From NCBI GenBank assembly GCA_014382585.1, contig JACNJL010000038.1:21726-85725 (forward strand): 64,000 bases of DNA, read 5' to 3'. The notes beneath the pieces are model-generated. The model saw nothing but the letters and a program-made list of their open reading frames with translations, did not search any database and had not been told where the DNA came from. Below are positions 28,704 to 40,246 of this stretch, piece after piece; position 1 is the first letter of the stretch, and the number at the start of each line of letters is the position of its first letter. The translations under genes were made by a program, and so were the position numbers. Origin of the DNA: Limisphaerales bacterium (GTDB lineage: Bacteria > Verrucomicrobiota > Verrucomicrobiia > Limisphaerales > UBA1100).

Positions 28704-30809
28704 GAGTAGCGACTTGGTTTTCCAATCCACCTTTGCGTCGCTCGGAGCGCGGCCCAGTTGGGCGCCTGAAAGATTTGACGTGCCGCCTTCGGCCCTCAGG
28801 CGCACGCGCAGCCACAGCGTGGTTTGCCCCAGCGCGGCCTTGGGGCATTCGGCCACCAAGGCCCCCGCGCCGGTGCCTTCGCCCCATTGCGGTTGAGGTT
28901 CCAAGCCGTTGTACAGCGAATGCCAATCTTTGCCATCGGCCGAAACTTCGGTGGCAAATGACCCCCGCATCGGCGTATCGCGTGCGGGAGTGAGGTCCAC
29001 GCAATAAATGGGCAGCCGCAAATGCGCGCGTAAGATTGGGCGTTCAAATTTAAATTGATACCGCACTTCCGCAGGCTGACCGTTTGTTTGCGGCGACCAA
29101 TAAACTGCGCCGCCAGCTTCCTCCACGCGACGCAGATTTTTGGAAAGATTAAGGTGCTCGGATTCCGATGGCAAAAGTGCCGCCCACGAAAATGATTCGC
29201 TCCAAGCCTCGCCCGCTACGGTGGGTTGGAGGGGTTGTTCGGTATCATGAATTTCTTTGATTTCCTTTTCAGTCAACGCCCGCTGGTACATTCGCACCTC
29301 GTCCACCGCGCCTTGGAAGCCCAAAATCTCAAGAGGCGTTTTCACCGTGCGAAAGGGTTTCTCCGGTTTCCACCAAAACCGATTTTCATTTTTCACGTCA
29401 AGCGGCTCAAATTTTTCACCATCAAACCACACGCGAGATGTGCCCGATTTGCCTTCGCAGGTGATGGCCAGAAAATGCCAGCACTGCGTTTCAATTTTCC
29501 CCACATCAAACAACGCGCAAATATAATTGCCATCGAGCCCAATCAAACCGTTGCCCGTCATTCGTACCGAGAAGCCCGCACCACTCAGCAGTGGCGCGCC
29601 GGTGCCCGATGCCCGCTCCTCAAACCACCCCGCCTCGCATGCCGCCCATTCATCCACCCGAAACCAAAGCGCCACCGTGCGCGGCTGATCCGATGACCAA
29701 ACCCAATCGTGACTCGCCCGCAACGAGGCATCCGCGCCCATCGCAATCGCCCGGTGCGGTTGATCAAAACGATCCGCGGTGGCGCGCGTCCATTGCCCAA
29801 GCGCGTCGTTGTGGTTGCCGCTGGCATCGGCCAAGTCGCCATCGAACCGCCAGTGAATCAGTAAATCCGAATCCTTGACGGACGCGGGCCAGAATGCCCA
29901 ACCCAAAACCAGTGCCCCCAGCGCCACCGCAGCCGCCATGGGCCACAGTAATCTGCTGTGTTCGCGCACGGCTTCCGCGTGGCCGCCATCGGCGATGCGC
30001 GCCAAATCGGCCGCCAACGCCACGGCATTCAGATACCGTTCTTCCGGTGTGTGCGCGCAGGTTTTGAGAATGACTTTGTTCAGCTCGCGTTGTGCGGCGG
30101 TGGATTTTTCGCTGCGCATCGACTTGGGTAAAGCCGGAAATGACTGGCGATCCTCGCCCGTTAACGCCTCGTATAGCACCCGCCCGAGCCCAAAAATATC
30201 CGCCGAAGGCTGCCCTGCCCCTTCGCGTGGCAAATACCCATGCGTGCCCACAAAGGCTTCGCCGTCGCTCGCGGCCGTCACCATCCCGATATCCGCGAGG
30301 CAATAGCGGCCGCGCGTGAAAATTAAATTGGAAGGTTTTACATCGCGATGCACCAGCCCGTGCGCGTGCAAATGCTGCAGTGCTTCGGCCACGGTGATGC
30401 CGAGATCCAGGCAATCATCCACCGGCAACCGCCCGTGCGCGCGCAAATCCGACTGCAACGTGCGCGGCGCGTACGCCTCCCAATCACCCGCGCCTTCGCC
30501 CTCACTTTCCGGCGCGGCCAATTCCATCACGTAATAAAAAAAACCCACCGCCTCATTGCGCCCCACCAAAAACAAATCCACCAAGCCCGACTGCCCGCGA
30601 CTGATTTCCTCAAACTGCCGCACGCCATCGAATTCCCGCTCAAAGGGCACTTCACTTTCAAAACGATCGCGCCGGATAATTTTCACCGCGCGATGCGCAC
30701 CCGTCACACTGCGCGCCAGCCACACCTCGCCGTAACTGCCCGCGCCAATGCGGCGCAGCAATTCGTGCTCCGGAATTTCCGGCGGCGGTGTTTCAGGATT
30801 TGTGCCCAT
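28680..30809 (-). CDS. Ser/Thr protein kinase with LamG-type tail
   Basis: 709 residues. Kinase domain ~15-275: glycine loop GAGSYGEV at 22-29, Lys43 in AVKII, catalytic loop HRDVKPSN, magnesium loop DIG in place of DFG, and THGYLPREG activation segment. One membrane helix follows (LLWPMAAAVALGALVLGWAF). The exposed part contains a concanavalin/LamG-like domain (LLIHWRFDGDLADASGN to VDEVRMYQRALTEKEI) and a second beta domain. It is coupled by overlap to the 69-residue ORF upstream and so to an ECF sigma factor, the kinase-sigma pairing common in Planctomycetes-Verrucomicrobia genomes. It may sense external ligands and signal to that sigma factor (inference). Confidence 0.93.
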   Translation of the reverse strand: MGTNPETPPPEIPEHELLRRIGAGSYGEVWLARSVTGAHRAVKIIRRDRFESEVPFEREFDGVRQFEEISRGQSGLVDLFLVGRNEAVGFFYYVMELAAPESEGEGAGDWEAYAPRTLQSDLRAHGRLPVDDCLDLGITVAEALQHLHAHGLVHRDVKPSNLIFTRGRYCLADIGMVTAASDGEAFVGTHGYLPREGAGQPSADIFGLGRVLYEALTGEDRQSFPALPKSMRSEKSTAAQRELNKVILKTCAHTPEERYLNAVALAADLARIADGGHAEAVREHSRLLWPMAAAVALGALVLGWAFWPASVKDSDLLIHWRFDGDLADASGNHNDALGQWTRATADRFDQPHRAIAMGADASLRASHDWVWSSDQPRTVALWFRVDEWAACEAGWFEERASGTGAPLLSGAGFSVRMTGNGLIGLDGNYICALFDVGKIETQCWHFLAITCEGKSGTSRVWFDGEKFEPLDVKNENRFWWKPEKPFRTVKTPLEILGFQGAVDEVRMYQRALTEKEIKEIHDTEQPLQPTVAGEAWSESFSWAALLPSESEHLNLSKNLRRVEEAGGAVYWSPQTNGQPAEVRYQFKFERPILRAHLRLPIYCVDLTPARDTPMRGSFATEVSADGKDWHSLYNGLEPQPQWGEGTGAGALVAECPKAALGQTTLWLRVRLRAEGGTSNLSGAQLGRAPSDAKVDWKTKSLLRVKLQSP

Positions 30810-36633: not shown

Positions 36634-38964
36634 TTATTTCTTGGACGCGTTTTTGGGGGGCAAGTTCAATTGGTGTGGATTTTTTTCGGTGTTGCCGGCG
36701 GCATCAGTGGCGGCGGCGGTGAGCTTCGCGGCGTTCGGCAGCTCGATGCTCCAGTCGGCCACGCCGTGTTGTTGGCGGTGGATGCGGGCGGCCTTGCCAT
36801 TCACGGTCACGGTCTTGATGAAGCCGTCGTCGTGGGTGGTGCCGGAGATTTTCAGCCGACCGCCCTGTTCGTCAATGCGGCGGATGATGGTTGCGGGCGG
36901 GAGGTCATCGACCGGCTGCAGCAGCTCGGGGAATGCCACGTTGACCACTTCCGCCACGACCGACTCGTCGCCGGTGAGCCCGGGCTCCTGCGCGTATTTG
37001 TTGCCGTCGCCGAGCAAATCCTTCGCACGCGTGCTCACCACTTTCGCGTGTTTGCCGGGGCCGAAATGATTGTGCAGAAAATACGGCACGCCCTTGGGCG
37101 TGGACGGCTGCAGGCGCGGACCGCCGCCGAGGTTCATCAATGGCCAGCGATCCGGGCGCGAGCGGTCGCGCACGGTCACGTTGCGGAAATGCGACTCGGC
37201 CTTGCCGGTTACATTATTGGCGCTCATTTGTATCAACGGCATCCGCCCGCCGTAGCCGAGCTGGCTGAAGGTGAGCCCGTCCACCGTGATGCTGCCGTGT
37301 TGCAGGCTGCGGTCGTCGAGGCCGCGATTGAACGGCTCGGCGCCGGTGGCGGCAATGTGCAGGTTTTTGTAAACGTGATTCTCGAACAACGGCCGGTAAA
37401 TACCGTACGCCGCGTGGTCGATGTGCACGTCTTCAATGAGCATCGTGGGCAATTGCGCCCGCAGCGCGTAGTGGGTTTGCCACAGCTTCAGCCCGCTTAC
37501 CCGATGCGGATGCCGCGTGTCCGGGCCCACGCCATCGGTGCCGGCGAGCGCCACGGAGTAGAGGCCTTCGGTGTGGGATTCGTTGCCCGAAAAGCGGCTG
37601 ATGGCCAGCGTGCGAATGTCGACGGTTTGGGTTTTGCCGTCGGGCATCAGCACGTCGAGATTGCTGTCAAAATTGCTGCGGCGCTGGCTGTCGTAGCGGT
37701 AACCGTATTGGTCATTCTCCACCGCCACGTTTCGCGTGAGGGTGTTGCGTCCGTTGGCCCACCAAAATGCCGCGCCGTCATTCGGGTCGAAGGGCAGCAC
37801 TTGATCGGGCAGCCGCCGCCCACGCATCGCCTGCACGCCGAGATTGCGGTCCAGCAGGTTGAACACCTCCGTGCCGTCCTCCAGAAAATACCCGTGCCCC
37901 ACCGATTGATAGCCCACGCAGTCGCGCACCAGCAGGTATTGCGTGCCGTGAACGGTCACCCAGCGGTTGTGCGAATCGACAATCGCCGCGCCGACCACCG
38001 CGCTGCCGCGCATGGTGGTGCCGACGAGATGAAAATGAATCGCGTATCGTCCCAGCACGCCTTCCTTGCCGAGGTGCGCAAACCGCGCGTAGCTGATGCC
38101 GCCCTTGCTGTAGCGATGAAACATCGTGTGCCCGCGCACGCCCTCGGGATCGGCGCTCTCGATGATCACGTTGCGCGACAGGTTCGCCACCTCACTGCGA
38201 AACTTGCCCTCGCCAAAATGTTCCGCGCGCAACGGCCGGTCGAGCGTCAGCACGCGCCCGTCCATCGCCTTGATAACGCGCTCTTCGGTGCCAATCTCAT
38301 CACGCTTTTTCGCGCCCGTCACAATCACCGAATCGCCTGCGCGCCAGCCCGTCACCGGCTCGGCCAAGGTCACCCGCGAATCTCCCGCCTTCGCCCCGGC
38401 CCCGAGCTTGACCCAAGTGCGGTTCATCGGCGCGCCGTGCAGCTCCATCCGCGCCGAGCAACACACCAGCGCCGGCGCGTCGTCCTCGTCCATCCCTTTG
38501 ATAAAGTGCAGCCGAATGCGCGCGGTGTGTTTCGCCGGAATCGGATTTTGCAGCGTGCCGACCTCCAGCGTCGGCATCGCGCCGGTGGGCACGGCATTCG
38601 GCTCGCCCGCCCGGTTGACACCGTGGAAATCACACGCGAACCCGCGCTCAGTGCAGCGATTGCCCGCCTGCACCTTCAGCAGTGCCACATTCAATTCCGT
38701 GCTGCGGTCGCGCGCAAACCGCAACGTGCCCGCCACTTGCAACAGCCGAATCACCGGCGTGCGCCGCGCCTCAAACCGCACCACTGTCCCCGCGCTGACC
38801 AACACGCGGTCCCCCGCCTTCGGCACACGCTTGGGCTCCCAAGTTTTCGCGTCCGTCCAGTCACCATTGGCCACCGACCGCACAGAAAATTTCACTGCGC
38901 CATTTTGAGCGGCAACAGACATGGCGGTGAGAAGACAAAAAACAAGGAGACGATTCATGGCCAT
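36634..38964 (-). CDS. Secreted G8-domain / beta-helix protein
   Basis: 776 residues from ATG 38964 (another ATG two codons later), with signal peptide MNRLLVFCLLTAMSVAAQ. Residues ~30-160 are a G8 domain (WTDAKTWEPKRVPKAGDRVL, then VQAGNRCTERGFACDF). The long middle is a right-handed beta-helix region (NNVIIESADPEGVRGHTM, HFHLVGTTMRGSAVVGAAIV, NTLTRNVAVEND), like CEMIP/TMEM2-type hyaluronidase relatives. A C-terminal Ig-like part holds WSIELPNAAKLTAAATDAAG. Likely acts on, or binds, a polysaccharide outside the cell. Confidence 0.88.
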   Translation of the reverse strand: MAMNRLLVFCLLTAMSVAAQNGAVKFSVRSVANGDWTDAKTWEPKRVPKAGDRVLVSAGTVVRFEARRTPVIRLLQVAGTLRFARDRSTELNVALLKVQAGNRCTERGFACDFHGVNRAGEPNAVPTGAMPTLEVGTLQNPIPAKHTARIRLHFIKGMDEDDAPALVCCSARMELHGAPMNRTWVKLGAGAKAGDSRVTLAEPVTGWRAGDSVIVTGAKKRDEIGTEERVIKAMDGRVLTLDRPLRAEHFGEGKFRSEVANLSRNVIIESADPEGVRGHTMFHRYSKGGISYARFAHLGKEGVLGRYAIHFHLVGTTMRGSAVVGAAIVDSHNRWVTVHGTQYLLVRDCVGYQSVGHGYFLEDGTEVFNLLDRNLGVQAMRGRRLPDQVLPFDPNDGAAFWWANGRNTLTRNVAVENDQYGYRYDSQRRSNFDSNLDVLMPDGKTQTVDIRTLAISRFSGNESHTEGLYSVALAGTDGVGPDTRHPHRVSGLKLWQTHYALRAQLPTMLIEDVHIDHAAYGIYRPLFENHVYKNLHIAATGAEPFNRGLDDRSLQHGSITVDGLTFSQLGYGGRMPLIQMSANNVTGKAESHFRNVTVRDRSRPDRWPLMNLGGGPRLQPSTPKGVPYFLHNHFGPGKHAKVVSTRAKDLLGDGNKYAQEPGLTGDESVVAEVVNVAFPELLQPVDDLPPATIIRRIDEQGGRLKISGTTHDDGFIKTVTVNGKAARIHRQQHGVADWSIELPNAAKLTAAATDAAGNTEKNPHQLNLPPKNASKK

Positions 38965-39012
38965 GGAGGATGTTAGCCGTTGGACGGTTAGCGGCAAGTG
39001 TAATTCGGGGGT

Positions 39013-39129
39013 GGTAATGACCAAGGCTCAAGAACCAACGACCAAGGAATGTCCAACCCCCAAATTGATCAACGGGCATTTCATTTTGGGACTTCCTTGG
39101 ATCTTGGGAATTGGACCTTGGTCATTACC
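39013..39129. repeat. Nested intergenic palindrome (GACCAAGG type)
   Basis: Outer arms GGTAATGACCAAGG (39013-39026) and CCTTGGTCATTACC (39116-39129) are a perfect 14-base inverted repeat, and CCAAGGAA/TTCCTTGG and CCCAAA/TTTGGG pairs lie inside. It fills nearly the whole gap between the selenoprotein candidate and the G8 gene, and the stop codon of the former lies in the right arm. It is likely a dispersed MITE- or REP-like element that can also terminate transcription. Confidence 0.75.
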
Positions 39130-40246
39130 GGATATACCCGGGCAACCAGCCGCGGGAGCCTTGGGGCGGTATGGTGTCGGCCGCGTCCTTGCCGTCGGCC
39201 AGCGTGAAGGCAATGGCGAGGGGAAATTTGCCTTTCGGCGCGTTGTGGGTGTAGGGGCCTTCGCCGTGGAATGGGCCGTGAGCGACGAGGTCGAGGCGGG
39301 TGACTTTGCCGTTCTTGGTTTCCACGCGGCCGAGGAGTTGCGCCTCGTAGCCGCGGTCGCCATTGGCGGTTTGCAGGTGAACGGTGGCGCGGAGTTGGCC
39401 GTTGGTGAGCTGGCCCTTCAGCGTTTTGATTTCGGTCTCGCGCCACATGGGCGGTTCGCCGCGGGTGTTGTCCACGAGATGAAATCGCGCGAGGCGTTTC
39501 AAGAGGCTGGCCGGAAATTGCCCCTTTGCGAGCGCCGCGTGTTCATCGGCGCGAATCCACAGATTGTCACGGCCGAGGGAGGTTTGAAAAATGCGGCGCC
39601 ATTCGTTTTCTGGTTCGTCGTAGCCGCTGAGGATTTTGGAGGTCACGCGCACAACGAGGCCACCCTTGGGCGACTGCGGATTGTACCGGGCATCCGGCGC
39701 GCCTTTGGCAATGGCGGCCACTTTCACGGGCTGATGTTGTTGCAGGGAACCGTTCATCATCCGCAGCACGCGATCGGCGCCGCGGTTGTTGGTGTAGGCG
39801 AGCAACCGGCCGGAGGCATCGGCGGTGTACAAGCCCTGCGTCGTCCCGCGGCCGATCTTGCGGGGGCCTTGGTTGGCGATCTTTTGGTAGAAGCGACCTT
39901 CGTTGTCCTTCTGTCGGCGCTGATACGCTTGATCGATGGCCACGGGGATGAAGCGCGTTTGCAGGAGCTTCACAATTTGCGGATTGGCAAAGGTCGACTC
40001 ACGGTCGAGCACGCCGTTGTTTCATGTGCACCCCAGCGGATGGCCATCCATCGCCCAAATAAAAATCGGCTTTCCCTCCCGGGCCGCGGCGGCTTGGGCA
40101 TCGAGCACGGAAGTCTTCCACGGGATGGTGCGCCACGTGGCCTTGGGATCGGGCTGCAGTTCGCGGTGCAGTTTTTGAAACTCCGCCTCCGTCAACCCGA
40201 GGGTAGCATAAACAAAAATAAATGAAACAAGCCAAAGCACTTTCAT
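39125..40246 (-). CDS. Thioredoxin-like protein with in-frame TGA: candidate selenoprotein
   Basis: 373 residues when the in-frame TGA at 40024-40022 (codon 75) is read as selenocysteine. The frame before it carries a signal peptide (MKVLWLVSFIFVYATLG) and GKPIFIWAMDGHPLGCT, the first strand of a thioredoxin-type fold. After the TGA the same frame continues for 298 codons with NNGVLDRESTFANPQIVKLL and RFIPVAIDQAYQRR, as such proteins do. So the redox motif would be Cys73-Thr-Sec75. A hairpin fitting a bacterial SECIS lies just after the TGA. A Cys-to-stop mutation or error is the alternative. No sel genes are in the window. Confidence 0.72.
39986..40015 (-). promoter_or_regulatory. Candidate bacterial SECIS hairpin
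   Basis: Reading the mRNA, six bases after the TGA, GGC (40015-40013) pairs with GCC (39988-39986). After a small internal loop, UCGAC (40008-40004) pairs with GUCGA (39998-39994) around the loop CGUGA. The loop starts 18 bases after the TGA and has a G-U at its second and third places, which meets the known requirements for bacterial SECIS elements (16-37 bases, G in the first two loop positions). Confidence 0.6.

Follow-up and report, generated by a model that had tools for sequence, protein, structure and literature searches.

The locus raises the question of whether an in-frame TGA in a thioredoxin-like gene of a Limisphaerales bacterium is a stop, a defect, or a codon for selenocysteine (Sec). 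Within the window (the whole stretch of DNA that was analysed, 64,000 nucleotides) the gene occupies a single frame on the minus strand (39125-40246), running from ATG to TAA and containing one in-frame TGA only, at codon 75; the two halves of the protein, which an earlier note had placed in one frame split only by the TGA at 40024-40022, do lie in that frame, and its estimate of about 298 open codons behind the TGA agrees with the in-frame count of 298. The readthrough product has 373 residues, with Sec at residue 75, and the context of the codon is ...IFIWAMDGHPLGCT-TGA-NNGVLDRESTF.... The features are, in order along the gene:

39125..40246, minus strand: predicted selenoprotein gene, 373 residues, Sec75; TAA stop at 39127-39125; from the frame and homologues.
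40193..40246, minus strand: hydrophobic N-terminus, residues 1-18, probable signal peptide; inferred from a low-confidence, variable segment.
39722..40192, minus strand: thioredoxin-like domain, residues 19-175; from AlphaFold2, Foldseek and sub-threshold Pfam matches (Thioredox_DsbH/Thioredoxin_7).
40022..40030, minus strand: C73-T74-U75 motif (TGC ACA TGA); from the sequence and homologues.
40022..40024, minus strand: predicted Sec codon TGA; TGA in 80/80 distinct core homologues.
39994..40008, minus strand: bacterial SECIS hairpin UCGAC-CGUGA-GUCGA; from covariation and collapse of codon choice.
39128..39664, minus strand: C-terminal domain, residues about 195-373; confident AlphaFold2 model, no significant PDB match.

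Seen in one genome, a pseudogene with a nonsense mutation or a sequencing error would give the same picture, one TGA within a long frame. When GTDB contigs were scanned, 87 encoding loci emerged, of which 80 were kept (48-83% identity); these belong to Verrucomicrobiota and Planctomycetota, the phyla being taken from titles, a few of which name other groups, and most family members derive from metagenome-assembled genomes. All 80 loci and all 80 distinct core sequences have TGA as the codon that aligns with residue 75. Among 196 relatives that were searched, full-length matches with one internal TGA each occur in six of six same-genus genomes and in some members of the family and of the order; 22 loci from this set likewise carry TGA at the aligned codon, and the remaining seven relatives' loci are distant (about 24-30% identity), with a TGA of their own that aligns one or two residues away. 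A sample of 388 genomes of the phylum, mostly from other orders, returned only the gene itself and one distant TGA-bearing relative. Both sides of the codon are under strong purifying selection (dN 0-0.02 and dS 0.8-2.9 before the TGA; dN 0.12-0.14 and dS 0.7-1.1 after it). Since the TGA is common to all loci, the reading as pseudogene or error is already refuted, and its probability is negligible.

The same comparison bears on the identity of the residue. Every close homologue has TGA (Sec) where residue 75 aligns, and none has Cys, which departs from the usual pattern; the earlier note had supposed a context in which related proteins would carry a redox Cys. Neither Cys nor any other sense codon occurs at position 75 among the 80 GTDB loci and the 196 relatives, where only remote CxxC proteins of the thioredoxin fold appear; because the query carried C at position 75, Cys versions would have scored higher, not lower. 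The sole match spanning the active site without an internal stop (L039) was considered as a Cys ortholog and rejected, being a CxxC (CHWC) DUF255-type protein aligned over 66 residues only.

Immediately 3' of the UGA lies a hairpin with a short apical loop and a conserved G, which are the features of a bacterial SECIS element; minimal elements described elsewhere consist of a 5/6-bp hairpin with an invariant loop G (PMC4607533). Its 5-bp stem is formed by arms 40008-40004 and 39998-39994 around the loop CGUGA (40003-39999), with G in loop position 2. The stem length, the loop, its start 18 nt past the TGA and the G in position 2 are all as the earlier note described them; its placement of the hairpin six bases after the TGA needs correction, as the conserved stem begins 13 nt past it, and lower-stem pairs from about 6 nt after the TGA form only in some single-sequence folds. 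The folding energy of the hairpin alone is unremarkable compared with shuffled sequence (z = -0.64), and the case for it therefore needed homologues. Across 40 distinct sequences, each of the five pairs is standard in 100% of cells, and four of the five show double changes (9 double-changed cells), as where C-G becomes U-A while the codons shift from CTC to CTT (Leu) and from TCG to TCA (Ser); in L096 a C-G to U-A change falls at the top of the stem. None of 500 shuffles matched the conservation of the hairpin, no slid register came close, and RNAalifold recovered the same helix unaided. Synonymous choice is collapsed in the hairpin codons (Asp+6 is GAC and Arg+7 is CGT, each in 79/80; Glu+8 is GAG in 42/42 sequences with Glu; Ser+9 is TCG in 70/78, the rest covarying), and the flanking codons Thr+10 and Phe+11 vary freely among synonyms. 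The hairpin is selected as RNA, and covariation and codon choice across homologues confirm the SECIS-like element proposed earlier. When the genome was searched with a covariance model of the hairpin, no other site was convincing (next best E 0.81), and Rfam at gathering scores gave no match in the whole window. Within the window, the hairpin model also shows a weak match at 30766-30795 on the minus strand (15.7 bits, window-wide E 0.035); this match does not reach the length of the model and is probably due to chance.

An open frame at 39125-40012 starts with GTG at 40012 (295 aa), and the locus could accordingly be read as two proteins, a short one that stops at the TGA and another that begins at this GTG. 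The residues NNG, which lie between the TGA and the GTG, and the upstream MDGHPLGCT are nevertheless near invariant, and Cys73 is kept in 80/80 core members; the conservation of the hairpin as RNA also speaks against two proteins, as does residue 75 itself, which lies centrally within a confidently folded domain. In the AlphaFold2 model (mean pLDDT 92 over the full length) this residue stands just ahead of helix 76-83 and after strand 61-66, where thioredoxins have their active site. A pair of separate proteins is thus very improbable, and a single 373-residue product is preferred. When the N-terminal domain of this product was submitted alone, Foldseek matched it to 3ira (DUF255-type), 3f9u (cytochrome-biogenesis related), 1sen (ERp18) and AGR3, and more weakly to 2ju5 (DsbH) and 1uc7 (DsbD-gamma), with probability 1.00 and TM about 0.5-0.6; the domain alone was needed, as nothing significant came from a PDB-sequence profile search or from Foldseek run on the full-length model. 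On this modelled structure the N-terminal domain is a member of the thioredoxin fold superfamily (E 2e-4, probability 1.00, TM 0.55-0.58). The C-terminal domain, which is confidently folded by AlphaFold2 and carries the conserved motifs HLVDNTRGEPPMW and FPLAIAF-LADG-D-AD, has no significant relative in the PDB profile search or Foldseek.

An open frame by itself is silent on which residue is inserted, and TGA might be decoded as something other than Sec, through a reassigned code or by programmed readthrough that inserts Trp, Cys or Arg. In 35 of the 78 family genes whose end can be seen, the terminating codon, located about 300 codons past codon 75, is itself TGA; TGA is thus a real terminator in these genes, so that there is no general reassignment and only codon 75 is recoded. 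The SECIS-type hairpin with its loop G argues in the same direction, as does the Sec machinery. The source genome (3.7 Mb, 95% complete) contains selA, selB, selC and selD, the set that the earlier note had proposed looking for, arranged as selC-selD-selA-selB along a single strand of contig C36 (58230-63533, a compact 5.3 kb; G000; L001, L002, L130), and the tRNA-Sec (selC) has anticodon TCA. Across the same order, selA is present in 19 of 21 genomes with a TGA-bearing relative vs 77 of all 196 (Fisher p 4e-7, a value that overstates independence because the genomes are related); another 33 genomes carry the gene, and 32 of these have selA. The exceptions in the first set are G019 (50% complete) and G088 (82% complete, with a distant match), and in the second G611; the lack of selA in these three is most simply explained by incompleteness of the genomes. 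Insertion of another residue is therefore highly unlikely, and the gene is almost certainly a genuine selenoprotein gene, as judged from sequence comparison.

Because the signals are conserved and the sel gene set is complete, we infer SelB-dependent insertion: SelB with Sec-tRNA(Sec) would bind the hairpin that starts 13 nt downstream of the UGA, and Sec would be placed at residue 75. The protein is probably exported by way of its putative signal peptide. Cys73 and Sec75 may form a reversible selenenylsulfide, by which the protein would act outside the cytoplasm as a thiol/disulfide or peroxide oxidoreductase, with the C-terminal domain perhaps supplying substrate or partner specificity. From fold and motif, an extracytoplasmic Sec-dependent oxidoreductase is the likely product.

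Distant thioredoxin-like paralogue subfamilies were also observed in the same order or class (L031, L041-L043, L032, L033, L044, L034-L038, L046, L047 and L129), each having one TGA within the same loop and varied Cys spacing; by their sequences these are probably further undescribed selenoprotein subfamilies. In distant relatives the Cys is shifted and Sec kept (HPLCAGU in L040, HPLCNTU in L042 and L043), or the Cys is absent (HPLANTU in L031 and L041); other motifs are APIGVCU (L033, L044) and RCU (L034-L038, L047). The family seems to depend on Sec, since Sec is kept in every relative while the adjacent Cys moves or vanishes in distant subfamilies. A broader proposition, which we regard as evenly poised between true and false, is that these proteins form one thioredoxin-like superfamily of Verrucomicrobiota and Planctomycetota in which Sec is ancestral and indispensable, the partner Cys is mobile (CTU, CAGU, CNTU, VCU, RCU, none) and Cys-for-Sec forms do not occur. 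If that is true, searches based on Cys homologues would miss such proteins. Nearly all known selenoproteins have many Cys homologues, on which prediction methods depend, and the authors of one such method state that it may itself miss selenoproteins without them (PMC12013277).

No NCBIfam or Pfam model claims the protein at threshold. The best NCBIfam match is NF041383 (VPGUxxT thioredoxin-like (seleno)protein, type 2), at 17.3 bits vs a cut-off of 275; hhalign of A3 against three NF041383 members aligned 70 columns (probability 90, E 1.9e-6, in a one-template comparison), and NF041383 proteins occur in some genomes that carry the gene. The two have a homologous thioredoxin-like domain with Sec in the active-site loop. 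However, unlike NF041383, where Sec leads U-x-x-C, Sec here aligns with that Cys and not with their Sec, and the motif is HPLGCTUNN, not VPGUxxT; the second domain of NF041383 proteins looks MsrA-like by its motifs, whereas the C-terminal domain here is without a known relative. One NF041383-type protein (L135, about 1501-2355) has two in-frame TGAs, the second of which aligns with the Cys of the MsrA-like HCYWEG in L134 and L136, and is by its sequence possibly a double selenoprotein. The best Pfam matches, Thioredox_DsbH/DUF255 (PF03190) and Thioredoxin_7 (PF13899), reach 18.2 and 15.8 bits vs a gathering score of 27; these families have the same fold but contain CxxC where C-T-U occurs here, Sec taking the position of the second CxxC Cys of DUF255, and they do not have the additional C-terminal domain. 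Listed thioredoxin-like selenoproteins include Sec.1 (CxU, PF13192) and Trx7/PDZ (NF041199, CxxU) (PMC13188914), which share with the present protein the thioredoxin-like domain and a Cys shortly before Sec but are other families; at the thresholds applied, the protein matched neither PF13192 nor NF041199.

A May 2026 review counts 119 prokaryotic selenoprotein families or subfamilies, none of which fits by domain and motif, and its text names neither Planctomycetes nor Verrucomicrobia. A 2016 paper reported selenoproteins in two planctomycetes, and an earlier single sighting of a family member among its candidates is possible (PMC4807772). The selenoprotein family is very probably missing from current catalogues and appears new, as judged against a literature thin in subscription journals, with a mechanism that appears to be the known bacterial one. 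It is found in two phyla, is absent from family libraries and has no Cys homologues among those found; the gene is therefore probably annotated as truncated or split. The family indicates a blind spot in surveys of selenoproteomes, and is a natural test of why certain proteins cannot give up selenium.

Comparison of gene neighbourhoods across the family revealed no conserved partner gene. The upstream neighbour is an anthranilate-synthase-type chorismate-binding enzyme, and directly downstream (window 36634-39024, minus strand) lies a protein with G8 and CEMIP beta-helix domains, a homologue of which adjoins the gene only in L053 and L057; both neighbours are local only. An antisense open frame of 434 aa (window 38921-40225, plus strand) overlaps the gene, and similar antisense frames in many homologous loci are most simply a by-product of codon composition.
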